This document shows, in pieces, positions 1,323-53,243 of a DNA stretch of 64,000 bases. This stretch comes from a virus. Both the position numbers and the translations under genes were made by a program. How positions within the stretch are numbered: the stretch's first letter is position 1; every line of letters begins with the position of its first letter. Under the pieces are notes generated by a model. The model was not told the origin of the DNA, searched no databases, and saw only the letters and a program-made list of their open reading frames with translations. The stretch is taken from the IMG/VR virus record IMGVR_UViG_3300031977_001295, positions 1 to 64,000 of that record. The stretch is one strand, 5' to 3'.

Positions 1323-1988
1323 TTATTTAGATTTTTCTTTTGCAATCCATTTTTTAGCAACGGGTTTGGTCGGTTCTTGTTCAGTAAACTTTTTAGCCCA
1401 CTTATAACCTTGTTGAGTTCCTGCTTTCCAATTCGCACCATCACTATTATCTAGGACGATGAAATTTCTACCAAAGTGCCCTTGGAATTTACCGATGTTG
1501 TTCTGTACTGCCTGCCACATCTTTGAGACTTCATCATCAGGAAGGGACCTAGCACGCGCCCTGTTGCGTGCCAAGGCGGTTTCTTTATCGGTGTTGACGA
1601 ATATCATTGCGGTGTCATAACCAAGACGTTGCAACTCCACAGACTGTTTCTTAATCTTGTCGTAGTCTCTACCAGTACCATCAATGACGATACCCAAACG
1701 ACCTTTAAGGTAGAGCTCTTGTTTTTTACCAGTGAGAGTTTTTGCCCGGCCACGCATTTCTTGACCTTTGACAGAGAAGATGTTTTCGGGATTCATTTCC
1801 ATACCCGCCTTCTTCATAGCATTCTCGAAGGCATCGTCGGAGTTCACTACACGCATACCTAATGCCGTGAGTGCGGTCTGACCGACGATAAAAGATTTGC
1901 CCGAACCAGGCCCACCTGCGAGGAAGATTGCTTTGAAGATTGCGGGGTCATTGACCCCTTCTGAAATAAACTGTTTAAATTTTAACAT
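1323..1988 (-). CDS. P-loop kinase (zeta-toxin/polynucleotide-kinase type) with capsid-targeting N-terminus
   Basis: A 221-residue protein. Residues 1-10, MLKFKQFISE, resemble the T4 capsid-targeting peptide and end in ISE before G, a prohead-protease-like site. Then comes FLAGGPGSGKS (Walker A, about 23-33), a probable second kinase motif VIDGTGRDYDK and a C-terminal arginine-rich lid (ARNRARARS). This fits zeta-toxin or polynucleotide-kinase-like folds; the substrate is unknown. I infer it may be packaged in the head. It overlaps the GIY-YIG gene upstream by a few bases. Confidence 0.75.
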   Translation of the reverse strand: MLKFKQFISEGVNDPAIFKAIFLAGGPGSGKSFIVGQTALTALGMRVVNSDDAFENAMKKAGMEMNPENIFSVKGQEMRGRAKTLTGKKQELYLKGRLGIVIDGTGRDYDKIKKQSVELQRLGYDTAMIFVNTDKETALARNRARARSLPDDEVSKMWQAVQNNIGKFQGHFGRNFIVLDNSDGANWKAGTQQGYKWAKKFTEQEPTKPVAKKWIAKEKSK

Positions 1989-5278: not shown

Positions 5279-5654
5279 TTTCTAGGTCTCGAAAGACTTG
5301 TTCTGTTTTAGCGTTCATGCGTTTTTCAATCATCCCTGGCTTCGCACGAGCAAGTCTCGTTAAGTTGTGATCTTTAAAGATCTTCATAGCATTATCTTTC
5401 TCTCGCTGTAACTCATTATTCCTTGCGGTGAGTGCAGACATTGCCGCCTCTGATTTCTTTGCATTTGCTTCCGCTGCAGCAAGTGACGCTTGTGCAGTTT
5501 CCACTGCTTTTTCCATCTGCACCTGATTCTCTTTCAAGGTGCGGTTGTTTGCCTCTAGTTGTGCTTTCGCTGCCTCTAGATTAGAAACAGTCACTTGGTG
5601 ATAAGCAAATCCTCCACCAAGAACAATAACAAATAATAATATGATGTATGGCAT
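5196..5654 (-). CDS. i-spanin-like inner-membrane coiled-coil protein
   Basis: A 152-residue protein with one N-terminal membrane segment (IILLFVIVLGGGFAYHQV) followed by a long alanine/glutamate-rich coiled coil (about 25-100) and an acidic tail. An Rz-type spanin would sit in the inner membrane with the coiled coil in the periplasm. The downstream lipoprotein gene starts inside its 3' end, which supports the pairing. Confidence 0.65.
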   Translation of the reverse strand: MPYIILLFVIVLGGGFAYHQVTVSNLEAAKAQLEANNRTLKENQVQMEKAVETAQASLAAAEANAKKSEAAMSALTARNNELQREKDNAMKIFKDHNLTRLARAKPGMIEKRMNAKTEQVFRDLENDTKELMDADDTPDPTGVSDAEGSGTS

Positions 5655-5818
5655 TATTTTACAACTCTTTTTCTTTTCCCTGCTACTTCTATATATCCAC
5701 GAGTTAATACTTTATATTTTTTCTTCTTCTTTCGAGGGCCGGGTGGGTCATCAGGTGGAAGTCCAGCAATACCAGAACTTGTTGTCATTGTTTCTGTGAA
5801 TTGTTTAAATGTCTTCAC
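5654..5818 (-). CDS. Small basic protein with capsid-targeting-like N-terminus (GTG start)
   Basis: A GTG start overlapping the upstream stop as GTGA gives a 54-residue protein that begins MKTFKQFTET. It continues with a proline-rich turn and a very basic segment (GPRKKKKKYKVLTRGY). The N-terminus is like the T4 internal-protein signal MKTYQEFIAE. The basic body would suit DNA binding in the head. An internal ATG at residue 11 is an alternative start that would lose the signal. Confidence 0.6.
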   Translation of the reverse strand: MKTFKQFTETMTTSSGIAGLPPDDPPGPRKKKKKYKVLTRGYIEVAGKRKRVVK

Positions 5819-15392: not shown

Positions 15393-15519
15393 CTACAATA
15401 ACACATTGTAAATGTTCTTCTCGAATTTCGATTGTTTCTTTTGGTTCGATAATATCAACAATCTTAGTACCGACCCATGAACCAAAAGTAATTAGAACAC
15501 CTATCAAAATGTATTCCAT
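15370..15519 (-). CDS. 49-aa membrane peptide with acidic tail
   Basis: MEYILIGVLITFGSWVGTKI is a membrane segment, followed by a Glu-rich tail ending VVEEEDEE. Its start overlaps the stop of the EF-hand gene (TAATG). Function unknown. Confidence 0.6.
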   Translation of the reverse strand: MEYILIGVLITFGSWVGTKIVDIIEPKETIEIREEHLQCVIVVEEEDEE

Positions 15520-15860
15520 TACTCTTTCTTCTTATTACCCACCGCATCAGCCGCAAAGAATGCAGACACTAACACTGCAATAGAGGCAAAATATGTTGGT
15601 GCAATATCAGCAATCAAACTTGCTGCGGTATCTAAACCAAACAATGATGTGCAGAAAATACCAAAAGGATATAACAACAATCCTATTAATGAAAACCAAG
15701 CCATCTTACGAATAGCATCACGTTGTGCATCTTGGTCTTCTAGTTCTTTCCTTTTAAACTCTAAGTCCATATGTGCTTCGAGTTCGTCCATAGAGATGTG
15801 TCCATCTCCGTTAGCATCCGCTGCGGCTAATTTTTCATCAACTGTTTTCTTTGCTGCCAT
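15519..15860 (-). CDS. EF-hand plus two-helix membrane protein, holin candidate
   Basis: A 113-residue protein. Residues about 13-26 form a canonical EF-hand calcium loop (ADANGDGHISMDELE). A charged helix and two membrane segments follow (WFSLIGLLLYPFGIFCTSLF and PTYFASIAVLVSAFFAADAV), with a lysine-rich tail. Size and topology suit a small holin; calcium control would be new to me for a holin, though similar proteins occur in marine phages. Holin function is an inference. Confidence 0.7.
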   Translation of the reverse strand: MAAKKTVDEKLAAADANGDGHISMDELEAHMDLEFKRKELEDQDAQRDAIRKMAWFSLIGLLLYPFGIFCTSLFGLDTAASLIADIAPTYFASIAVLVSAFFAADAVGNKKKE

Positions 15861-15996
15861 CTTTCTTTACCTCTTCGTCGTTTGATTGTTCGGCATCATC
15901 ATTAAAATAATGTTTTGTCCAATCATGATGAAGAGGGGCTACACCATTCACGGGAGCCTCATGCAACATTTTCACATCAGATTCTTTGTTACTCAT
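15838..15996 (-). CDS. 52-aa hydrophilic protein
   Basis: A short acidic ORF (MSNKESDVKMLHEAPVNGVA...) joined by ATGA to the upstream gene and overlapping the EF-hand gene by 23 nt. Function unknown. Confidence 0.5.
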   Translation of the reverse strand: MSNKESDVKMLHEAPVNGVAPLHHDWTKHYFNDDAEQSNDEEVKKDGSKENS

Positions 15997-16826
15997 TTTG
16001 TTGTGTCTTTGGGTTTCTCAGGATTAAGATGACCTACACGTTTTTCGCCTGGACGCAACTTGGAAAGTTTAGTAACTCGACCTGCCTTTGAAGCATCGTC
16101 GTGACCTTTTTCTTCTGTGTCATCGACTTCGGGATTCTCCATATCATGGTCTTTCGCCATATCCTTTGCCGCTTTACCCTTATACTTGTCAAGCATGGTT
16201 TCACCCTTTGCAGCACCCTTAGAACGTTCTGCGTAGGTCTTACCTTCTTTCATTTTTTTCTTAGAAGCGTGTGAATGATTCTTTTCTGAGACAATCGTGA
16301 GTTCTTCGACAGGAACATCAAACTCAACACCGTGTTCAAACATTACATCGTAGTGAGTGACGATGGCAGTACCGTCTTCTTGTTCTACTAATGTATGTTC
16401 GCCCGGAATACACTCACCATAACCCCACTGTTCAGATGTTACGTGTGATGCACAATCGTGCTTGAGAGCTTTAGTTGCTGACTTATCGTCCATATCTTCT
16501 TCAGACATTTTCTTCTTTTCAGCAGAGTCGTACTTAGAACATTCGGGGTCGTGATTCTCTGAAGAACCGCCACACTCAGCACACTTCTTCATACCATCCT
16601 TATCCATATCCTGTTCGACTTCTTCACTCTTAGCAATTGCCTTACGACGCTTGTGAAGATACTCATCTGATGAATCGACATCACCATCATTGTCGATGTC
16701 TTTGTCATCACGGTCAGCGTGTTTGCCTTTCAATTCATCTTTATCGACAGGATCAAGTTTTTTATTTTTTTTCTCAACAACTTCCTGCCAAGCTGCTGTG
16801 ATACTATCAATTAATTTACGATCCAT
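15993..16826 (-). CDS. Highly charged protein with calcium-loop-like motif, probable internal head protein
   Basis: A 277-residue, Lys/Glu/Asp-rich, low-complexity protein. The stretch ADRDDKDIDNDGDVDSSDEY contains an EF-hand/dockerin-like DxDxDG loop. Six cysteines cluster around CAECGGSSENHDPEC and KHDCASH. Similar proteins lie near head genes in marine T4-like phages. Together with the adjoining capsid-targeted genes this suggests a scaffold or internal head protein, but no targeting peptide is present here. Confidence 0.65.
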   Translation of the reverse strand: MDRKLIDSITAAWQEVVEKKNKKLDPVDKDELKGKHADRDDKDIDNDGDVDSSDEYLHKRRKAIAKSEEVEQDMDKDGMKKCAECGGSSENHDPECSKYDSAEKKKMSEEDMDDKSATKALKHDCASHVTSEQWGYGECIPGEHTLVEQEDGTAIVTHYDVMFEHGVEFDVPVEELTIVSEKNHSHASKKKMKEGKTYAERSKGAAKGETMLDKYKGKAAKDMAKDHDMENPEVDDTEEKGHDDASKAGRVTKLSKLRPGEKRVGHLNPEKPKDTTK

Positions 16827-17141: not shown

Positions 17142-17405
17142 TTATTCCTGAATGTCTATTACTAAATCGTTCATTCCTTTAATGACTCTATGATACATCA
17201 TTGCAGGAATATGGTATTGTTCACCTTCTATTAACTCTATCGGCAATTCACCATTGTACTGCAACTGCCAACCTTGTCCTTCTAATACCGTGATAACTCT
17301 ATCTTGTCTATCACGATGCCATTCAAACTCTTCGGATTGATTGTGTATCGTTCTTATACTTTCGTTATCAGTATAAGGTTTACCAGAAGTAGTTTCCACC
17401 ACCAC
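17142..17405 (-). CDS. Small cupin-domain protein
   Basis: An 87-residue single-domain cupin: WHRDRQDRVITVLEGQGWQL and the second half EGEQYHIPAMMYHRVIKG, with histidines that could bind a metal. Possible roles are sugar or small-molecule binding. It overlaps the upstream capsid-targeted gene by 26 nt. Confidence 0.7.
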   Translation of the reverse strand: MVVETTSGKPYTDNESIRTIHNQSEEFEWHRDRQDRVITVLEGQGWQLQYNGELPIELIEGEQYHIPAMMYHRVIKGMNDLVIDIQE

Positions 17406-17787
17406 TCAATCCTAATTGTTTTGCATAACGAGGTAAACGACACGCCCAATAGGCTGCCGTTGTCTTATCATTCTGTTGCGAACACTTATGTCTCGCAGCA
17501 AACGACTTACGGGCTTTAGGGTCATTCAACTTAACCTTTAACCCTGTAGTATCTCCCCAAGTAACTTTCTTAATGTTACCCGTTGAGGGGTCCTTGACAT
17601 ATACGTAATACTTTTTAGGACCACCTGCCTTTGGTTTGTTCAACTCAGGTTGCGCCTCTTCAAACATAGGTCGTTCAAGAGGAACGTTTCTACCTTCGAA
17701 CAAAGCGAACTCTGGTTCGGCATCAAAGTCGGGTTCACGGCAATCGTCGCAACACGCTTCGTTAATAAACGCCTTAAATGTTTTCAC
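17380..17787 (-). CDS. Capsid-targeted internal protein with conserved C-terminal domain (DUF5872-like)
   Basis: A 135-residue protein. Residues 1-10 MKTFKAFINE followed by A match the T4 internal-protein signal and its protease site. The C-terminal domain has KYYVYVKDPSTGNIKKVTWG and ARHKCSQQNDKTTAAYWACR, which I link to the DUF5872 family; the two cysteines and LPRYAKQLGLSGGG are typical. It probably enters the prohead and is injected. Its start overlaps the polyprotein stop (ATGA). Confidence 0.75.
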   Translation of the reverse strand: MKTFKAFINEACCDDCREPDFDAEPEFALFEGRNVPLERPMFEEAQPELNKPKAGGPKKYYVYVKDPSTGNIKKVTWGDTTGLKVKLNDPKARKSFAARHKCSQQNDKTTAAYWACRLPRYAKQLGLSGGGNYFW

Positions 17788-19403
17788 TTAGCTTTCCCTA
17801 AGATTTTCCATACCGCTGATGCCAACTTAGCAACAGGCATCTTTTCCATTTTCTTTTTGTTTGCATCATTGACTTTATCATATACAGTCAAGATTGCGTT
17901 AGCAGTCTGCATGTCCAGACCTTTCTTTGCACCTTTGTTCTTAACAACATCACGTGCAAGGTCAATAGCGTTTGCTTCATCAAGTTCGACTGATTCATTC
18001 ATTGACTTGATATGACTAATCGCAGCCTGCTTTGCTTTGGTAAATGATTGAAAGGTTTTCCACTCTTTCCCGTCAATGTGCACAACAACGGGGTCAGTCA
18101 TCTTTTTGCCTTTACGGAGATGTGTGTGAGTGTGGTCTTTACCATTCGCATCCTTGTAAACATAGGAAGCAATAAATTTCATTCCTGCGGGAACCTTCGA
18201 TGCTTCGTTGACCGACTCAACGTACATATTCAACTCGTACTTGCGACCTGTGTTGTACACTTGAACGTGAAGGTTCTGTTTCTTGTCTGTCTTGAGAATA
18301 TGCGATACGGTTTTGCCAGTCGAAGGTTTTCTTGGGCCTGATGCGACTTTACTATCGATTTCATCAGGACGAACAGTTACACCATGTTTCTTCTTAGCAT
18401 GGGCATATGCGTGTTGCATTGCCGCAGAATACGTATCGTGATAGATGTCATATCCAGTCGCAGACTTACCAGCATCTCTTTTTTCTTCGATTGACTCTTT
18501 GATGCTGTAGGAATTGATAGTCGCTCCCATATCACCCAATGCGAGGGTTGCGTCTTCACCATCTCGACTATAAAGATGGAACTTCATTCCACCAGGCTTA
18601 TTGGGGTCAACCATATTGACCTTATCAACGTTGTACTTTGCACTGCGTGATTTACCTTTCACCATGAAGGTACGTTTAGTGCTACCTCTAATGCCAGAAC
18701 CATAATCGATTGTAATCATGGAACCTTTCTTGAGCTTGTCAAAATCTTTACGAGACACTCTGGTTGCTTCATCAAGTTCGACTGATTCTTTTGCATACTT
18801 CTTCTTAATCTTGTCGTATGTGACACCAGAATCGATTGCCTTCTTGACCATCGCCTTTGCTTGACCTTGAGGAACCTTATACTTCTTCATCACCATCTGA
18901 ACTGCTTGGTCCATGTTCTTAGATGAACCGATAGTTGTCAGAATGTCTTTGATATCTTTGATGGTTGTTTCATCAAGTGACTCAAGCGTGTTAGGAAAAT
19001 CTTGATTTACTTGGTCGGTTGCTTCTTTTACTTTATCAGGAAGACCTTTGTGTTTTGTCTTTGCAAAATCTTTGACATCCTTTTTCTTCATCGTCTTAGC
19101 TGCTTGAGCAACTTCGGGAGAAGGTGCGTCCATTTCACCTTTCTGCACAGCACGAACCATACCCATAAACTTTTGCTGTTGTTTCGATACTGACTTCTCG
19201 TCAAGTTTTCCACGAAACTGTTCAAATGTGTAGGTCGCTTTTGAAATGTCGGATTTATCCACAGTAACTTTTTTCCCTAAAAATTTTAAAAGGTCCATGA
19301 CTTTCTTAAAGTTTCCTTTCTCGATATAAGTTCCCGCAACGTGTTTTGCTGCGTTCTTAAAATCTTTTTGTCTAACTTTAAGAGATTCTTTTTTAATGTT
19401 CAT
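17784..19403 (-). CDS. Probable internal head polyprotein with repeated prohead-protease sites
   Basis: A 539-residue, lysine-rich, modular protein. The octapeptide ESVELDEA occurs at 206-213 and 470-477, and ESVNEA at 396-401. Each ends in a hydrophobic residue, any residue, Glu, then Ala, the cut site of T4 gp21-type protease. Cutting would give about 212, 188, 76 and 63 residue pieces. The second piece holds a beta-barrel-like region (GSMITIDYGSG, KRTFMVKGKSRSAKYNVDKV) and a basic region with HDTYSAAMQHAYAHAKKKHG. The third holds FIASYVYKDANGKDHTHTH. No enzyme motif is evident. It lies among capsid-targeted genes. Confidence 0.75.
   Translation of the reverse strand: MNIKKESLKVRQKDFKNAAKHVAGTYIEKGNFKKVMDLLKFLGKKVTVDKSDISKATYTFEQFRGKLDEKSVSKQQQKFMGMVRAVQKGEMDAPSPEVAQAAKTMKKKDVKDFAKTKHKGLPDKVKEATDQVNQDFPNTLESLDETTIKDIKDILTTIGSSKNMDQAVQMVMKKYKVPQGQAKAMVKKAIDSGVTYDKIKKKYAKESVELDEATRVSRKDFDKLKKGSMITIDYGSGIRGSTKRTFMVKGKSRSAKYNVDKVNMVDPNKPGGMKFHLYSRDGEDATLALGDMGATINSYSIKESIEEKRDAGKSATGYDIYHDTYSAAMQHAYAHAKKKHGVTVRPDEIDSKVASGPRKPSTGKTVSHILKTDKKQNLHVQVYNTGRKYELNMYVESVNEASKVPAGMKFIASYVYKDANGKDHTHTHLRKGKKMTDPVVVHIDGKEWKTFQSFTKAKQAAISHIKSMNESVELDEANAIDLARDVVKNKGAKKGLDMQTANAILTVYDKVNDANKKKMEKMPVAKLASAVWKILGKAK
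17974..17996 (-). repeat. Repeat encoding ESVELDEA, copy 2
   Basis: 23 nt identical to 18766-18788, in the same frame of the same gene; both encode the putative protease site. Confidence 0.9.
18766..18788 (-). repeat. Repeat encoding ESVELDEA, copy 1
   Basis: 23 nt identical to 17974-17996, 792 bp apart (264 codons). Identity at nucleotide level, including codon choice, suggests duplication of a linker module rather than convergence. Confidence 0.9.
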
Positions 19404-19409
19404 AACTTC

Positions 19410-19417
19410 TATTTATA
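19410..19417 (-). promoter_or_regulatory. Possible late promoter before the polyprotein gene
   Basis: Exact TATAAATA on the minus strand, but it ends only 6 bp before the start codon at 19403, so a transcript from it would have almost no leader. It may be fortuitous. Confidence 0.4.
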
Positions 19418-19645
19418 TTACGCCAAATCTTTATCGTGATTGAGACCACCTTTCTTCTTTTTAACGATAAACGCATTGACCCTAGCATATCCCCATTGTT
19501 GTGGAGTAGTGCCTGGACGATGGCCCGTTTTCCATGCAGCAACACCACGGTCATAAACTTTTTTTAATGTTGCCCTTGAAATACCAGACTTCGCAGCTTT
19601 GTCTGCGAGAGCGTCTTCGGTAATCACGTAATCTTTAAACTTCAT
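19418..19645 (-). CDS. Capsid-targeted small protein (DUF5824-like)
   Basis: A 75-residue protein starting at the ATG of MKFKDYVITE, another capsid-targeting-like peptide (ITE before D). The body (SGISRATLKKVYDRGVAAWK, GHRPGTTPQQWGYARVNAFI) matches what I know as DUF5824. Longer versions of the ORF reach back into the nucleotidyltransferase gene and are unlikely. It overlaps that gene by 11 nt. Confidence 0.75.
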   Translation of the reverse strand: MKFKDYVITEDALADKAAKSGISRATLKKVYDRGVAAWKTGHRPGTTPQQWGYARVNAFIVKKKKGGLNHDKDLA

Positions 19646-21026
19646 TGTTTTTACCCTTATGTTTAACATAACCTTTTTTAGTGGCTTTCTTCTTGTCTGT
19701 ATGAACAGTCGCTTTATTAAACTTGTGTGCAAACTTAGCAACAGGATTTTTCGTACTTTCTTTTCGTGGATTCGTTTCTCGTGCCTGTCTTCTTGCTTTG
19801 GTAATCCTAGCCCTATCAATCATTCTATCGTGACGAATCTTATCAGCGTCCAGTTCACGATTGATAACTTTTCTAACAGAAGAAACTTCATCGTCTCTAC
19901 GGAATTTTTCACCAAACATTTTGTTGTATGCTTTGGTATACTTGGAAGGCTTGGTTTCTGTGGTCTTATCGCCTGGCGCAGGTTTGTATGCGTTAGGGTC
20001 ATCATCGTCCATCTTAGACTGTCTCTTAAACTGACGGTCTCTAGCAATCTTCTGCGCCTTAGATAAACCTTTGTGATAACGAGCAGGTTGTGTTCCCTTT
20101 CTCTTACCAATCTCTTTGTCTTGCGGAGTATCGGTTTCTTCGTTAGGCGTAATCTTCTTCGCCTTCTTAGTAGATGCAGGAGTTCCCCATTCAGGTTGAT
20201 TCGATTCAATTAATTCAATACCGTCCAACCATTGGCGTGTTACTCTACCTTCATCTAATGCTACAATAACATAGTTTGTGCCCAGACGATAAATCTCACC
20301 TTCTTTCATCGTATCTTTTACAAGAACTCTGTCACCAGGCTGGAATAACTCACCAGCGATATACTTTTCTCTGGTTTCAGAAACAACACCTAAATCGACG
20401 TGATTCTTAAATTCTTTGGTTTCTTTCAAACCCATTCCAACACGAAGGTCATTGAAAAGACGCTTAGCGTCTCTGTCAGACATTGATGATGGTACGCCCT
20501 GTGAGAATGTAGTAAAATCATTATTCGCAACATTCGCACGTTGTTTGGAGGCAGACATACCCTCAACACCTTCAGCATCGGGGTCACGGTCACCCGCAGA
20601 TACTACGTTAATCTTTTCAAAGTTGTAGAATCCGTGTCTCGCTTTGGTACCATTGTATTTGTTCAATAATGTTTGAAACTCAGTAATGCGGTCAGCACCA
20701 ACAACCATAGTGATTCTATTAAATCCTTGATTGTGGAGGGCTACAGCAATGTCGAAAGTGTTCCTAACTTTCTTATCAAGAATAACATTACGAGCATGTT
20801 TTGGGAACATTTTACGAACATGTTTTATTTTCTGTTCGTAAGATAATGGATTCTTCTTTGGGTCTGAAGATTGGGAAAGATACACATAATAGGGGTTACG
20901 TCCAGCCTTAGTGGCAAGAACTGACATCAACTTTCCATGACCAATAGTAGGAGGATTCATCCTTCCAAAAGTAAAGAATGCCTCTTTGTTTTCTTCTACT
21001 AAGAATTGTTTAAATGAGGGTATCAT
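19635..21026 (-). CDS. Capsid-targeted nucleotidyltransferase-fold protein
   Basis: A 463-residue protein. Residues 1-11 MIPSFKQFLVE form a targeting-like peptide. The next domain (about 15-185) is a cytidylyltransferase/NMN-adenylyltransferase fold with FGRMNPPTIGHGKL (HxGH-type site) and MSASKQR (ISSTxxR-type). A small beta domain (GDRVLVKDTMKEGEIYRLG) and a very basic C-terminal 180 residues follow. The basic tail suggests DNA contact inside the capsid. Substrate unknown. Confidence 0.8.
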   Translation of the reverse strand: MIPSFKQFLVEENKEAFFTFGRMNPPTIGHGKLMSVLATKAGRNPYYVYLSQSSDPKKNPLSYEQKIKHVRKMFPKHARNVILDKKVRNTFDIAVALHNQGFNRITMVVGADRITEFQTLLNKYNGTKARHGFYNFEKINVVSAGDRDPDAEGVEGMSASKQRANVANNDFTTFSQGVPSSMSDRDAKRLFNDLRVGMGLKETKEFKNHVDLGVVSETREKYIAGELFQPGDRVLVKDTMKEGEIYRLGTNYVIVALDEGRVTRQWLDGIELIESNQPEWGTPASTKKAKKITPNEETDTPQDKEIGKRKGTQPARYHKGLSKAQKIARDRQFKRQSKMDDDDPNAYKPAPGDKTTETKPSKYTKAYNKMFGEKFRRDDEVSSVRKVINRELDADKIRHDRMIDRARITKARRQARETNPRKESTKNPVAKFAHKFNKATVHTDKKKATKKGYVKHKGKNNEV

Positions 21027-21463
21027 TATTTCGCACCAGTTTGAACCTTTTTACGTTTTCTTTCCATTTCTTGTTTTCTCGCAAGAGGTAATGTCTTGCG
21101 AACTAAATTCTGAATACGTGATTGAGGCAGTTTGTCGATGCGGGCTTCTATTTCTTTTCTACGTGCAGCGGGGACTTCGTTACGAGATTTACCCTTTGAA
21201 AATTTTAGAAACAGTGTGTTTCTTACCTGTTTCATAGTTCTCTTTTTAAGAACGTCGATTGAAGCAGTCTTACGTGCTGCTTTGGCGCGGCCGAGTTTCA
21301 ACTTCGCTTTCATTCTTTTCATCAGACGAGAACGAGCACGTCTCTGAGAAAAATTCAGAGCCTCGTCTTGTTTGCGGTCTTTCGCATTTTTACTGATTTG
21401 GTCATCCATTCCGGGCGTGTAGTCCACGGTCTGAAAGTCCCTGAAACGAAGTGGTTTGGCCAC
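21026..21463 (-). CDS. Very basic DNA-binding-like structural protein
   Basis: A 145-residue protein with about a third Lys+Arg (QRRARSRLMKRMKAKLKLGR, then KTASIDVLKKRTMKQVRN). The family recurs beside these head-packaged genes in marine T4-like phages. It probably binds packaged DNA; no targeting peptide is evident. Its start and stop abut both neighbours. Confidence 0.75.
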   Translation of the reverse strand: MAKPLRFRDFQTVDYTPGMDDQISKNAKDRKQDEALNFSQRRARSRLMKRMKAKLKLGRAKAARKTASIDVLKKRTMKQVRNTLFLKFSKGKSRNEVPAARRKEIEARIDKLPQSRIQNLVRKTLPLARKQEMERKRKKVQTGAK

Positions 21464-21465
21464 TT

Positions 21466-22689
21466 TTAATTCCTCGTCGGTTTATCCCATCCCTTCAAAA
21501 TATTTGGCGAAAAGTTGTTGTATGAAAATTCCAATCTATCAACAATCTTTACCGCATCACCACCTAACTTATCGATTGCTACGTAACCCTCAGCACCCGT
21601 TACTTTAAAACCTTTAGTCGTTTTAACAAAGGTGTCGATGTTTTGCAATCGATTAAGTTTATTTATAAGTTTCATTTTCGCAAGAACAATTAATTTCTGA
21701 AGTCGGAACATATCGATGAGGTTGACTTTATTTTTGAGTGAGAAGAAAGAGAGTAACTCATCTCTCTTCTGTCTTTGTGTCGCCTTTCCAGCGGAAGTTT
21801 TTCTTTTAGCTATTTCTTTACCGTATTTACCGTGAATCCATCGAATCAACTTCTCAGTATGTGCTACTTCGTTTCCGATGACGGCGCCTTTTCGGACGAA
21901 GGTGTTGTTGTAGGTTTCGATGTGTTGTGCGAGGGTGGGGTTTCCTTCCAATTCTCGTAATGTCTTCCCGCTAATAGAATTAAATAAAACTCCAATTTGT
22001 GATAGAAGTTCGTTAACATCTTCGGTTTCTCTCTTAGTCATCGTTGCATTAGTTACGTCTCGCAACATTGCATCTTGTGACCATACATTGGAAGATGATT
22101 TTAAAGATTTAACATCAACGCCATATGAAGCTCTCATGGTTTCAAATGTTTTTCCAGTGTATGTTGTGTGCCAAACAATTCCTATTTTGGCTGCTCGAAT
22201 AGGTGCAGACTGTTCGTATGGTACAGCGTATACAATTGTGTTGGGGTGAAAGGTCACATACCTTTTACCATCAATATTTTCGGTGGACAAATCTCCACGT
22301 CCAAACAGAAAGTCGCCCTGAATCACCCCTTTGATTCCCAAAGCAGGTAAATATCTCAGAGCGTCTTTCAGTTTGGTTGAGAGGTCGCCTGACGTGTCAG
22401 CATCGATCTCAGTTTCGGTCTTATAGACCTTTGGGTTCTTATTAAAGATACCCTTTTTGGCAACAAAGAACTGCCCGTCCCTTGGGTCAGTACCAGCAAA
22501 GATAGCGGGAGCTCCATCCCACTTAACCGACACTCTACCCTCCTTCTTGCCTGAAAGCATGTCTCTCAAATCACGCAGCGCAAAAATAGCTTGACGTGTC
22601 CCGTTGACACCACCATAGAGAACCTTGTCCTCGATATGGGTCATGTGCGTATTTTTTTGTTCTGTTAAAAAATCTGAGAGTGTTTTCAT
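21466..22689 (-). CDS. Capsid-targeted nucleic-acid-ligase-fold protein (DUF6267-like)
   Basis: A 407-residue protein. Residues 1-10 MKTLSDFLTE form the targeting-like peptide (LTE before Q). The core has the ligase nucleotidyl-acceptor motif VKWDGAPAIF (KxDG, lysine near residue 56), FVAKKGIFNKNP, a motif III-like VIQGDFLFGRGD, FHPNTIVYAVP, and a late VKIVDRLEFS. This is the covalent nucleotidyltransferase layout of DNA and RNA ligases. I recall the family as DUF6267 in marine phages. Whether it seals nicks is untested; delivery with the DNA would suit early repair. Confidence 0.8.
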   Translation of the reverse strand: MKTLSDFLTEQKNTHMTHIEDKVLYGGVNGTRQAIFALRDLRDMLSGKKEGRVSVKWDGAPAIFAGTDPRDGQFFVAKKGIFNKNPKVYKTETEIDADTSGDLSTKLKDALRYLPALGIKGVIQGDFLFGRGDLSTENIDGKRYVTFHPNTIVYAVPYEQSAPIRAAKIGIVWHTTYTGKTFETMRASYGVDVKSLKSSSNVWSQDAMLRDVTNATMTKRETEDVNELLSQIGVLFNSISGKTLRELEGNPTLAQHIETYNNTFVRKGAVIGNEVAHTEKLIRWIHGKYGKEIAKRKTSAGKATQRQKRDELLSFFSLKNKVNLIDMFRLQKLIVLAKMKLINKLNRLQNIDTFVKTTKGFKVTGAEGYVAIDKLGGDAVKIVDRLEFSYNNFSPNILKGWDKPTRN

Positions 22690-22949: not shown

Positions 22950-24353
22950 TTAATATAGTTTGACAAAGTAACTTGATTGGTCCGTATCCGATTGTGCGTA
23001 ACGAAACATTTTAGTTGTGAATTCGTTTCTCTTTGCAGCTGTACTACTCATAAGAATATCAACAAACTGCATACATATTGCTTTACTATTTTTAAAATTA
23101 TAATCAGACTCTTCCATAAAGCCCATAAACTCTGGTTTTTCCATCAGAGGTTTACTGGGTTGAGACTTACTATTATATTTTTTATACAACTCGTATAGTT
23201 GTTCTTGAAACTTACCGTTAGTTTCATTCTGTTTAATCCAGTTAAGGTAGTCTCTTTCAGAACCAAACCCGCCGTATATTGTTTTTCCGAATACTTGTTG
23301 ACAATAGAAGTTTACATTACCGCCACCAATCTTACCACCAGCTGCAGCACCACCTTTAATCTCACCTTGCCAAGAGGTGTCACCACCAAAGGTTCTAAAT
23401 TGAACATCACCTTCACTGGTCTTCACATAGATGTCTTGTGAATTGAAGAAGTCTCCCGTTTTGCCGTATGTGAAACTTAGAAACTTATACGATGGTCTGC
23501 TTGCTAATTGACTGGGCGTGTTGAACTCTGTCCACTTAGCTTTTGCCTGATTTGCGGATACTTTCTTAAGCGATATTCCTAACAACTTACCTTTTTTTGC
23601 TAGGTCATATACCGCAGAATTAAGTTCACCCCAACTACTAATATGTTCTTTTAATGGAGTCTCAGTGGGTCTAAACGTGGAAGCCCAAATATCGCCAGGA
23701 TTCCATTTATCATTTGAGAAACTACCTGGCGCCTGAGGCATTCCATTTTGTTTATCAATCTTGTGACAGTCTGCCTTCGCTTTGTACACTTCATTCATGA
23801 ACTTAGAACCACGATGAAAGTATACCACACCTCTCATCTTACTTCCATGTTTGTCATACAGTGTATTGGCAGTCTTTATGTAAACGTCTGTCTCAACCCA
23901 GTTTGCAGGACCATTTTTCAAACAATCGTTTAGTGAAACGTCGGCATTGACATATTTCTCGGCTGACTTAAGGTCTTTGGGTGATACGGAAGTGCACTTA
24001 CCCTTCTTAACATTGAAAACATAGGAACAATAATAACACTGTAAGGATTCAGTATACTTGGTATCTTCAGCACCACCACCAGAACCAGAACCACCACCAA
24101 AGTCTTTGTCTTTGAAGACTTTGGTAAATGACGTTTCTTTGATAACTTTAGAGGAAGAAGATTCTTTATATTGAAGAATTCTCTTTTTAGAATCGTACCC
24201 AATTCCGACAACAGTTTTACCAGCTTTGGTTGTCCCAATAATAAAAGGTTTTTTATCTTTTATTTTCAAAGAAAAAATTTTATCACGAGTTTCTCCGGCG
24301 TAATCACCGGAACTCGCAGTCTTTGAAAAATCTTTTGATTGTAGGGCAGCCAT
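22950..24353 (-). CDS. Large hypothetical, probably virion-associated protein
   Basis: A 467-residue protein (from the ATG at 24353, preceded by TAAGG right after the upstream stop). It has a Gly/Ser linker (GGGSGSGGGAEDTKY) at about 84-98, a four-cysteine patch (CYYCSYVFNVKKGKC) that could bind zinc, and a glycine-rich region GGAAAGGKIGGGN. No enzyme family recognised. The ORF extends 20 codons further upstream but would then overlap the DUF1289 gene. Confidence 0.65.
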   Translation of the reverse strand: MAALQSKDFSKTASSGDYAGETRDKIFSLKIKDKKPFIIGTTKAGKTVVGIGYDSKKRILQYKESSSSKVIKETSFTKVFKDKDFGGGSGSGGGAEDTKYTESLQCYYCSYVFNVKKGKCTSVSPKDLKSAEKYVNADVSLNDCLKNGPANWVETDVYIKTANTLYDKHGSKMRGVVYFHRGSKFMNEVYKAKADCHKIDKQNGMPQAPGSFSNDKWNPGDIWASTFRPTETPLKEHISSWGELNSAVYDLAKKGKLLGISLKKVSANQAKAKWTEFNTPSQLASRPSYKFLSFTYGKTGDFFNSQDIYVKTSEGDVQFRTFGGDTSWQGEIKGGAAAGGKIGGGNVNFYCQQVFGKTIYGGFGSERDYLNWIKQNETNGKFQEQLYELYKKYNSKSQPSKPLMEKPEFMGFMEESDYNFKNSKAICMQFVDILMSSTAAKRNEFTTKMFRYAQSDTDQSSYFVKLY

Positions 24354-24357
24354 ACCC

Positions 24358-24555
24358 TTATTTATAAATATTTTTCCAGTATTCTTTTTTTCTCTCGGAA
24401 CAAGCGTCAACAATGTGTTTTCTTTCGTTTTGGTCGAAGGTATCCCACCATTGAATCTCAGTTAACAAACGAAAACAACCGATGCACATTTCATCGGTAT
24501 CTAAAACACAAACCCCCAAGCAGGGGGAGTATACGTAATCTTTTTTGGGGTTCAT
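24358..24555 (-). CDS. DUF1289 family cysteine-rich protein
   Basis: A 65-residue protein with the DUF1289 signature SPCLGVCVLDTDEMCIGCFR followed by EIQWWDTFDQNER. Bacterial DUF1289 proteins are small and probably bind a metal or iron-sulfur cluster through the four cysteines. It overlaps the upstream secreted-protein gene by ATGA. Confidence 0.8.
   Translation of the reverse strand: MNPKKDYVYSPCLGVCVLDTDEMCIGCFRLLTEIQWWDTFDQNERKHIVDACSERKKEYWKNIYK
24359..24366 (-). promoter_or_regulatory. Possible late promoter
   Basis: TATAAATA on the minus strand, inside the overlapping palindrome TATTTATAAATA (24359-24370), so it reads on both strands. It ends 5 bp before the start at 24353, which makes it doubtful. 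Confidence 0.4.
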
Positions 24556-35639: not shown

Positions 35640-35718
35640 TGGTCGGGGTGGAGGGATTCGAACCCCCGAAACCCCTCGCTCCCAAAGCGAGTGCTCTACC
35701 AGACTGAGCTACACCCCG
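35640..35718 (-). tRNA. tRNA-Pro (anticodon UGG)
   Basis: On the minus strand the acceptor CGGGGTG pairs with CACCCCG. The D arm is GCTCAGTCTGGTAGAGC, the anticodon stem-loop CTCGC-TTTGGGA-GCGAG (anticodon TGG) and the T loop TTCGAAT. The 3' CCA is encoded (35640-35642). It is a complete cloverleaf. Confidence 0.95.
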
Positions 35719-39929: not shown

Positions 39930-40295
39930 TTAATGTTCACCTCTATTGTTAGTTAATTTGTTCCAATCATCAGGAGTAACATTATCTATACTATGATGTC
40001 CAGGCGCAGGTTTGATAGCTTGTGTATATTCTTGGTCATGAATGAACAATTGAATCAGTGTATAATGTAAGACTTTCACCAAGTCTTTTCGCCATTCAGT
40101 TGGTGTCTCACCTTTCTTCCCATATCGTTTCAGATACTTTTTAGCATTACCAATACAAAATCCTGTACCGTGACCATCATCAATAATGTCCTCAGTCGCT
40201 TGAATCTTGCCGCCAGCATAATGTTGGTCGTATGTTTGATCGACATACGCTTTCAACTCTTCAATGAGTTTGTCTTCATTAAATTTGTAATTCAC
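39930..40295 (-). CDS. DUF3310-like protein
   Basis: A 121-residue protein with GHGTGFCIGNAKKYLKRYG, the mark of DUF3310, a phage family predicted to bind nucleotides. It overlaps the cytidylyltransferase gene by 17 nt. Function unknown. Confidence 0.8.
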   Translation of the reverse strand: MNYKFNEDKLIEELKAYVDQTYDQHYAGGKIQATEDIIDDGHGTGFCIGNAKKYLKRYGKKGETPTEWRKDLVKVLHYTLIQLFIHDQEYTQAIKPAPGHHSIDNVTPDDWNKLTNNRGEH

Positions 40296-40698
40296 TAACT
40301 CTTCTCCTCAAATCACTTGTAGAAAACCTATGGTCTCTTTTATTAAAGTAAACTTCAATTCCTCTTGAAGCACATATATCACGGCCGGTGAAATTAGAGT
40401 CTTTATACTCTTCACCTATTATTCTAACATCTATGTTTACCATTTGCAAGATGTCTTCTAAATCAGTTTCACTTTGATATGGTATAATTTCATCCACATA
40501 CTTAACACCAACCAGCTGTGTATATCTCTCCACCAAAGTTTGAACTGGTGAATTTTTTTCAGAACGGTCAAGTGAAGGGTCAACCTGTAAACCACAAATC
40601 AAATAATCACATTGTTCTTTCGCTTCACGCAACATCGTAATATGACCAGCGTGAAGCAAGTCAAACGTACTGGCTGTAAACCCTACTACCTTTCCCAT
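40279..40698 (-). CDS. Glycerol-3-phosphate cytidylyltransferase-like protein
   Basis: A 139-residue single-domain cytidylyltransferase: GFTASTFDLLHAGHITMLRE (HxGH), VDEIIPYQ, IGEEYKDSNFTG, and FSTSDLRRR (RTEGISTT-type end). TagD-like proteins make CDP-glycerol-type sugars. In T4-like marine phages this gene is common but its substrate is not known. Confidence 0.85.
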   Translation of the reverse strand: MGKVVGFTASTFDLLHAGHITMLREAKEQCDYLICGLQVDPSLDRSEKNSPVQTLVERYTQLVGVKYVDEIIPYQSETDLEDILQMVNIDVRIIGEEYKDSNFTGRDICASRGIEVYFNKRDHRFSTSDLRRRVSELQI

Positions 40699-53167: not shown

Positions 53168-53243
53168 TGGAGCGGGATGCGAGGTTCGAACTCACGACCT
53201 CAACCTTGGCAAGGTTGCGCTCTACCAACTGAGCTAATCCCGC
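53168..53243 (-). tRNA. tRNA-Gly (anticodon GCC)
   Basis: On the minus strand the acceptor GCGGGAT pairs with ATCCCGC. The D arm is GCTCAGTTGGTAGAGC, the anticodon stem-loop CAACC-TTGCCAA-GGTTG (anticodon GCC) and the T loop TTCGAAC. CCA is encoded at the 3' end. Confidence 0.95.

Follow-up and report, generated by a model that had tools for sequence, protein, structure and literature searches.

Unrelated proteins encoded by a marine T4-like phage begin with short peptides that are probably capsid-targeting sequences like those of the T4 internal proteins, from which a gp21-type cut would free the cargo, and the same code probably stands between the modules of longer chains; we put the probability of this reading at about 0.82. 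The DNA analyzed (referred to as the window) comprises 64,000 nucleotides, bases 1-64000 of IMG/VR virus record IMGVR_UViG_3300031977_001295, the whole of which has 93,682 bases and is that of a T4-like phage. The comparison established the pattern itself, its concentration in cargo-type genes, a head protease in the same genome, a coincidence of cut-type sites with module joints, and the presence of relatives in virions in published work. On this basis, an F-x-x-[FY]-[I/L] motif would dock the protein in the prohead core, a gp21-type protease would cut after [I/L]-x-E and leave the enzyme loose in the head, and the freed enzyme would be packaged and ejected together with the DNA; with the cut code between modules, one core-bound chain (such as that of 17784..19403) would give several small cargo proteins. 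An earlier note on this DNA had proposed that unrelated enzymes share a targeting N-terminus of the T4 type that ends in a gp21-type cut site, and this part was well supported by prefix conservation, enrichment, and the S77 protease. All six peptides listed there were present on the minus strand; the list was too small, missing module strings with internal sites (17784..19403), and the positions given for the peptides (17380, 19418, etc.) are really the 3' ends of minus-strand genes.

Targeting-type peptides and the head protease

In T4, residues 4 and 7 of the N-terminal peptide are reported to target the protein and residues 8 and 10 to govern cutting, which takes place after L/I-x-E; with D at position 10, targeting is retained and cutting is prevented (PMC9026906). 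According to the T4 record, IPII and IPIII start with MKTYQEFIAEA, and IPI with MKTFKEFTSTTTPVSTITEA. The window peptides (Table 1) were of this type, with hydrophobic residues at positions 4 and 7 in the first 10-19 or so residues. Four of the six matched a strict pattern, ^M.{0,4}[FYLIMW]..[FYL][ILVM].E, and MKFKDYVITE and MKTFKQFTE matched only loosely. Applied to T4, the strict pattern picked out IPII, IPIII, and gp24, which is a substrate of gp21, together with mobB and some starts that lack annotation. The L/I-x-E cut motif was present in the DUF6267 loci, and in loose form in the family of the small basic protein of 5654..5818. Five of the six peptides stood on recognizable or family-level proteins: DUF6267, a cytidylyltransferase-like protein, one half of DUF5824, phrog_7595, and a P-loop kinase. 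The N-terminal peptide, the hydrophobic residues at 4 and 7, the I/L-x-E cut form, and an S77 protease in the genome are all shared with the T4 internal proteins. On the other hand, the cargo here is enzyme-like and modular, the tag is found on many unrelated families, and several chains have internal cut-form sites, some of them without an N-terminal tag.

In the DUF6267 family (the best 80 of at least 600 matching loci, and the closest ones), the conserved KNTHMTH start was preceded by E (P1) in 80/80 loci, with I (62 loci) or L (18 loci) at P3, mostly F or Y at P4, and F or L at P7. These prefixes comprised 50 distinct 8-mers in 59 distinct DNA versions, and both E codons were used at P1; this mixture of codons at fixed residues indicates that the protein, not the DNA, is conserved. 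The nearest annotated relatives of the window protein were those of phage C48C1 (69% identity), Stenotrophomonas phage DLP6, and Methylophilales Melnitz phages, with HTVC008M (Pelagibacter) being more distant, and matches were found in 466 of 50,697 phage records, mostly cyanophages. Four of the nine isolates examined carried the tag, HTVC008M in the short form MYNDLLVE. The ligase fold suggested by the earlier note for one of the enzymes was not confirmed: the AlphaFold2 model of DUF6267, from 35 aligned sequences, was moderate (mean predicted local distance difference test score of 68.9, with low confidence at residues 1-17), a Foldseek search with this model against the PDB was empty at E<=0.001, and the profile gave nothing below 0.28 against PDB sequences. 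Residues K56, D58, G59, E367, G368, and K381 did not vary in either of two alignments, of 32 and of 35 sequences; KxDG may be motif I of RNA/DNA ligase-type nucleotidyltransferases. PDB sequence searches with the cytidylyltransferase and with the kinase gave none at 0.01. The enzyme activities named here are therefore putative.

The frequency of the strict pattern, which was composed after the peptides of DUF6267 loci and isolates (including S-CREM2) had been seen, was then compared between gene starts and other windows, using two sets of loci that were found via cargo genes, are not whole-genome samples, and contain related sequences that are not independent samples. In the DUF6267 loci, 123 of 902 distinct N-termini matched (13.6%), compared with 0.42% after shuffling and 8/7344 internal windows; without the DUF6267, cytidylyltransferase, and DUF5824 genes, 39/795 remained (4.9%). 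The corresponding values in the module-string loci were 55/752 N-termini, 45/8160 internal windows, and 38/728 N-termini without the three seed families. Among the controls, matches were found at 1/727 N-termini (0.1%) in gp23 loci, where internal windows were higher (60/7477), at 4/661 (0.6%) in T7-like marine loci (internal, 8/5079), and at 0/38 in P-SSP7. The strict matches fell into 26 clusters, 11 of which had at least two distinct matching N-termini; clustering was single-linkage and the largest cluster merges several families, so that the family numbers are rough. Few tagged families have Pfam names (DUF6321, DUF2608 with sub-threshold matches to acid phosphatase, and zeta/AAA_33 kinases) and one resembles ParB-like proteins, while most were unmatched in Pfam (20 representatives), PHROGs (10), and NCBIfam (6 of these, together with 4 window proteins).

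A Peptidase_S77 (gp21 family) gene was found at record positions 66008-66439, outside the window (E 2.4e-44), and gp22-like and gp23-like proteins adjoin it in the gene calls. A protease of this family was also present in five of six related records searched, the sixth being an 18-kb fragment. In the gp23 loci (best 80 of about 600), all 41 gp21 proteins recognized by pattern end in a motif such as LYETQVREFKNFLSLLK; this FKNFL motif resembles the cargo tags, and 40 of the 41 have [ILVM]xE near the N-terminus. The C-terminus of gp21 elsewhere reads FENF[IL] in DLP6 and one other record and FNDFL in S-SCSM1, that of S-CREM2 (FHDLL) fits the motif partly, and T4 gp21 has no FKNFL-type C-terminal motif. 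Judging from these sequences, the protease and its cargo may share one docking site. In gp23, the 36-residue stretch of the expected propeptide cut contained at least one [ILVM]xE in 69/69 distinct sequences, a count made with no comparison with chance, and the last of these tripeptides was LNE, LSE, LTE, INE, or similar. C-terminal targeting peptides on cargo, an idea taken from S-SCSM1 ORF93 (open reading frame 93, ending in RTFKEFLEYIE), were rejected as a general rule because there was no enrichment in cargo loci (9/840 and 8/688, compared with 1.5% and 1.8% of internal windows), gp21 being the exception. Beside gp21, where T4 has gp67/gp68, lies a small minus-strand protein beginning with MKNFKEIREASKKK... 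(record 66509-66718), and this start resembles the MKSFKxLRE tags of lone modules.

Cut-type sites between modules

[ILVM]xE occurs nine times in the protein of 17784..19403, with the E at residues 69, 127, 145, 212, 303, 307, 400, 470, and 476. All nine were located at presumed joints, but the module limits had been drawn with the sites in view, and the independent test is given by joints in relatives. The 15 residues at each module start were compared with 200 shuffles of the same residues, using eight modules in cargo-type loci and isolate stretches. [ILVM].E was found at 48/50 joints of the DUF3008 module (A; shuffles: mean 20, highest 28), 15/15 of module C (8.4 and 13), 22/25 of module D (6.1 and 13; one of its 26 contexts had too short a window), 8/9 of module F (4.1 and 7), and 37/44 of the DUF5824 second half (14 and 20). 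The value for module H, 48/58 (23.7 and 33), is post hoc, because the first window gave 0/58, with the profile starting approximately 15 residues inside the module, and was then moved. Modules B and E, with 4 contexts each, showed nothing alone. Eight patterns were tried, and [ILVM].E alone beat every shuffle for each of the modules A, C, D, F, DUF5824, and H. Within modules, [ILVM]xE was rare: 0/12 to 7/124 windows in most, and 1/12 in E.

The modules were found in the orders ABCDEF, CDEB, CB, DC, CD, AD, DE, DF, CF, and GH, and as single modules. Some lone modules were self-tagged, for example by MKSFKNFIEARG, or by MKSFKELREGK ahead of module D. The second half of DUF5824 is a gene of its own behind MKFKDYVITE in the window, and stands in-chain behind EIDE (HTVC008M) and EFQLDE (Melnitz), inside the cytidylyltransferase chain. 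Pfam gave DUF3008 and CdiA_helical in 17784..19403, both below the cut-off, and no metallopeptidase domain; the DUF3008 module was 77% identical over 56 residues to S-SCSM1 ORF93, an annotated virion protein. A 146,377-base IMG/VR contig (L261) holds this protein at 100% identity, indicating that a longer relative of the phage exists.

Polyvalent proteins of phages and conjugative elements, described as chains of domains that presumably enter the particle and are split into functional units (PMC5512222), likewise have several domains in one chain. They reportedly differ in having their own metallopeptidase domain and are scarce in archaea and cyanobacteria; the cutter of 17784..19403 is presumably the head protease. 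The ejection proteins of the giant phages SPN3US and phiKZ are also similar in that N-terminal propeptides of head proteins are reportedly cut after x-x-E by a gp21-related protease; their propeptides mostly exceed 100 residues, versus about 10 here.

Relatives in published virions and the weighing of explanations

The cytidylyltransferase of the window was 40% identical over 266 residues to S-SCSM1 ORF91. Members of this family were detected in virions by mass spectrometry (MS) in S-SM1 (putative cytidylyltransferase T4-GC190; PMC3037559), S-SCSM1 (ORF91, nicotinamide mononucleotide adenylyltransferase, NMNAT; PMC9602691), and S-CREM2 (52 virion proteins listed; PMC10665884), where virion proteins also include a kinase and a S-adenosylmethionine (SAM) hydrolase. 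Virion NMNATs of S-CBWM1 and S-SZBM1 are also named in that literature. All three of the cytidylyltransferases looked up, those of S-SM1, S-SCSM1, and S-CREM2, carry a tag at the gene start: MKKFSAFLNE/A in S-SM1, MKSFLQFLKE/AA in S-SCSM1, and MKNFSSFLTE/A in gp154 of S-CREM2 (the slash marks the putative cut). In S-SM1 and S-SCSM1, the gene also lies in the same region, before gp61/nrdA; in S-SCSM1, the stretch that separates the helicase/MazG region from gp61/nrdA encodes ORF89-98, 7/10 of which are virion proteins according to the deposited annotation. The portions of these accounts available to us differ from the present study in drawing no link to a targeting peptide.

In S-CREM2, six of 219 ORFs matched strictly and four of the six were MS-detected: gp6 (MKDFDSFLEE; S-AdoMet lyase by Pfam), gp13 (MKDLHSFLTE), gp14 (MKRFDAFLTE; kinase), and gp154. 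The Fisher value was 0.029 (0.0043 without MS-detected structural proteins); like the following ones it is not blind, since the peptides had been seen before the pattern was composed and the limits of the matrix were set after the S-SCSM1 test. This matrix, trained only on IMG/VR prefixes (other phages) and limited to E by residue 14 and a score of 6, gave 5/7 by adding gp136 (MQTFSMFFSE), with a Fisher value of 0.0091 (0.00075 without structural proteins; 0.0038 also without gp154). At a cut-off of 8, one of three tried and none of them chosen in advance, it gave 3/4 (0.042 and 0.0097). A looser regular expression was not significant overall in S-CREM2 (6/16; 0.15, or 0.015 without structural proteins). 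S-CREM2 gp12 (L091, 7704-10313) has LRFASFMAE at residues 17-25; it was called Cas9 by its authors and had no Pfam match at E<=0.1, so the label looks doubtful.

Besides the non-blind values and the related sequences already mentioned, several observations weigh against the capsid-targeting explanation. The matrix scored T4 IPII and IPIII at 5.2, below its cut of 6, and missed IPI. Only one (ORF91) of the five strict matches among the 282 ORFs of S-SCSM1 was an annotated virion protein, with 1/2 by the matrix, and a strict match was lacking in all but one of the seven island virion proteins, ORF89 (MDSKTFNSLSE/A) being a near miss; S-SCSM1 was consequently dropped as a second statistical test, being supported by ORF91 alone. 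Its virion ORFs number 48 in the record and 45 in the paper (PMC9602691). The tag was absent from the cytidylyltransferase of P-HM2, that of HTVC008M starts with MKTLKELLRKK and has no E, and DUF6267 was untagged in 5/5 cyanophages examined (S-PM2, P-HM2, S-CAM9, Syn9, and S-SM1). The window protein of 22950..24413 was also untagged, though its relatives carry the tag. Furthermore, the authors of PMC9602691 and PMC10665884 concede that abundant proteins may have been carried over, and this applies to the virion presence of the relatives. Since the tag was absent in the cyanophage DUF6267, P-HM2, most S-SCSM1 island virion proteins, and 22950..24413, it is subject to gain and loss; if the virion lists are right, proteins must therefore also reach the head by other routes.

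Four other explanations were considered. The peptides may send proteins to the prohead core solely as assembly helpers, which like a scaffold would be removed before packaging, so that nothing would be injected. In T4, gp21 indeed breaks down the core proteins gp22, gp67, and gp68, which for the most part exit the head (PMC9026906), and several window proteins are small and basic; however, relatives are reported in finished virions purified in caesium chloride, and the site precedes the conserved domain of DUF6267 and of the cytidylyltransferase instead of lying inside it, which makes this explanation unlikely. The internal [IL]xE sites may alternatively be acidic, flexible joints in module strings that are left uncut or are cut by another protease. 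E-rich linkers raise chance matches, as seen in the shuffles for DUF3008 (20/50), and other patterns equalled or exceeded the highest shuffle in individual modules: E.[ILVM] reached 13 in module D (highest shuffle, 12), and [ILVM]...E reached 33 in module H (29) and 22 in DUF5824, equal to the highest shuffle. Nevertheless, no pattern other than [ILVM].E beat the highest shuffle in each of the six module types, and gp23 of the same phages has the same kind of tripeptide in its expected cut stretch; we regard uncut or otherwise cut joints as improbable, to about the same degree as a role in assembly only.

The remaining two explanations appear far less probable still. Lys/Phe/Glu-rich starts are common in AT-rich phages, and gene starts in the window are tightly coupled, as would be expected if the shared N-terminus were a habit of translation or gene starts (an AT-rich leader or coupled starts) with no targeting role. 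Against this, the pattern was rare at starts in the gp23 and T7-like marine loci and unequal in frequency among gene classes, codons varied while residues stayed, and the same cut form was found inside chains far from starts. Conservation in the best 80 of at least 600 DUF6267 loci would also be compatible with a segment that has long belonged to the enzymes and serves, for instance, in regulation or dimer formation, but the peptide is common to unrelated domains, residues 1-17 were of low confidence in the DUF6267 model, and neither the examined jumbo-phage cytidylyltransferases nor the cyanophage DUF6267 have it. The former bear on a refuting condition of the earlier note, that relatives in non-T4 phages carry the same N-terminus: 529 records match the window cytidylyltransferase, and in a small version of this test the relatives from three jumbo phages (one Klebsiella, one Pseudomonas, and one Escherichia) were untagged, with the domain at the very start of the protein or close to it, which is consistent with acquisition of the tag within the T4-like lineage.

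Targeting sequences in T4 and NMNAT in virions have both been described before. The earlier note had regarded the cargo as seemingly undescribed as a group; virion-borne relatives of the cytidylyltransferase are in fact in print (PMC3037559, PMC9602691, and PMC10665884), and what was not found, in open-licence PubMed Central papers, was a link of this enzyme to a capsid-targeting peptide, or a tag spread over modular enzyme cargo with a cut code between modules. If the capsid-loading explanation is true, it explains enzymes inside virus particles. A sequence rule predicting some of the proteins carried in the heads of abundant marine T4-like phages would help to settle doubts between real cargo and carry-over in published cyanophage proteomes, locate many unnamed genes within the course of infection, and reveal how cargo is acquired during evolution; it is testable with described isolates (S-SM1, S-SCSM1, S-CREM2, Melnitz, and HTVC008M). 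Going by family names, our guess is that the cargo forms a kit that works on nucleotides and RNA early in infection (NMNAT-like, P-loop kinase, and DUF6267 with KxDG). The NMNAT-like, P-loop kinase, and S-CREM2 SAM lyase families would fit NAD+ (nicotinamide adenine dinucleotide) supply, RNA/nucleotide mending, and anti-restriction, and NAD+ restoration by phages as a counter-defence has already been reported. A wider and more tentative proposal, for which we consider the odds slightly below even, is that marine T4-like phages use one cargo code: F-x-x-F-[IL] for docking, at the N-terminus of enzymes and the C-terminus of the protease, and [IL]xE between exchangeable modules. Genes would join through about ten codons or by splicing into a chain, the head protease would decode the load before DNA packaging, and the kit would restore NAD+, mend RNA, and block restriction before phage gene expression.

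Coordinates and neighboring genes

Table 1. Tagged proteins, module string, and protease gene (window positions unless marked as record positions; the slash marks the putative cut).
Feature	Position	Strand	Length (residues)	N-terminal peptide	Peptide DNA	Start	Remarks
AAA_33/zeta-type P-loop kinase	1323..1988	minus	221	MLKFKQFISE/G	1959-1988	ATG 1988	Pfam AAA_33 E 1.1e-11, Zeta_toxin 7.7e-11
Small basic protein	5654..5818	minus	54	MKTFKQFTE	5792-5818	GTG 5818	T4 IPI-like peptide
Small protein	17380..17787	minus	135	MKTFKAFINE/A	17758-17787	GTG 17787	phrog_7595 E 6.6e-13
Module string	17784..19403	minus	539				DUF3008-like module and modules B to F; [ILVM]xE sites at presumed joints
DUF5824 second half, separate gene	19418..19645	minus	75	MKFKDYVITE/D	19616-19645	ATG 19645	Pfam positions 64-125, E 1.5e-19
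Cytidylyltransferase/NMNAT-like	19635..21026	minus	463	MIPSFKQFLVE/E	20994-21026	ATG 21026	With first half of DUF5824 and DUF7230
Basic protein	21026..21463	minus	145	MAKPLRFRDF then DE/AL			Weaker tag, absent from the earlier list
DUF6267 protein	21466..22689	minus	407	MKTLSDFLTE/Q	22660-22689	ATG 22689	Pfam E 1.7e-103; predicted cut between E10 and Q11
Cargo-cluster protein	22950..24413	minus	487 (TTG start) or 467 (ATG)				Peptide absent here, present in relatives
gp21 gene	record 65840-66505	minus					FKNFL-type C-terminal motif, LYE/T before it

The start of MKFKDYVITE is within a longer listed ORF (19418..19819). The gene caller placed the start of the cytidylyltransferase later, at 20927; that at 21026 was favored because relatives carry the peptide ahead of the domain. 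In Pfam, this protein matched CTP_transf_like with 26 bits (cut-off, 21) and DUF7230 above the cut-off, and positions 1-66 of DUF5824 below it. The kinase, cytidylyltransferase, DUF5824, and 17380..17787 families showed the same kind of prefix among the relatives' contexts listed, with exceptions. Only 5 matches to the kinase, including a weaker one, came from the loci that were searched, and MKSFKTYLNE (L024), VKSFHAFLNE (L038), and MIPFILKE (HTVC008M) stand ahead of the same domain. The domain of 17380..17787 is the last part of a fused Melnitz protein (65% over 114 residues). Relatives of the basic protein of 21026..21463 start with MLSFKQFVSE in C48C1 and MKKFSELTSELIE in Melnitz (blastp, 35% over 77 residues, E 2.3e-5).

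The peptide of 5654..5818 is one residue short and may be of the longer IPI type, as T4 IPI reads MKTFKEFTSTTTPVSTITE. Its relatives (blastp E about 1e-9 to 2e-10) have MKTFKQFNEE, MKTFKQFGEE, MKSFKEYNEE, MKSFKQFVEE, MKSFKEFMVE, and similar; in these sequences, the docking half of the family is conserved and the cut half loose. Relatives of the protein of 22950..24413 start with MLKFSSFLSE, MIGFGTFLSE, and MKSLVSFISE, and 6/19 distinct N-termini of the cluster matched strictly; the protein itself is related to S-SCSM1 ORF90, an annotated virion protein (profile E 4e-62; blastp, 27% over 240 residues, E 4.5e-14).

A second nucleotidyltransferase (40279-40698, minus strand), presumably of the HxGH type, begins at its domain (MGKVVGFTASTFDLLHAGH) with no tag and forms a contrast within the window. 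Beside the cargo cluster, 15993-16826 (minus strand) encodes a protein of acidic/basic, repeat-like sequence that matched RyR below the threshold (E 0.049); no RyR match was found in four proteins resembling it. Phage RyR-domain proteins have been reported to feed NAD+ synthesis (PMC13232231). This protein looks akin to S-SCSM1 ORF92, but blastp with a low-complexity filter found no match between the two, and a kinship is not claimed. In the short protein of 15519-15860 (minus strand), hydrophobic segments come after a stretch resembling an EF-hand (DANGDGHISMDEL). The window also contains tRNA-Pro (tgg; 35640-35718) and tRNA-Gly (gcc; 53168-53243), both on the minus strand.

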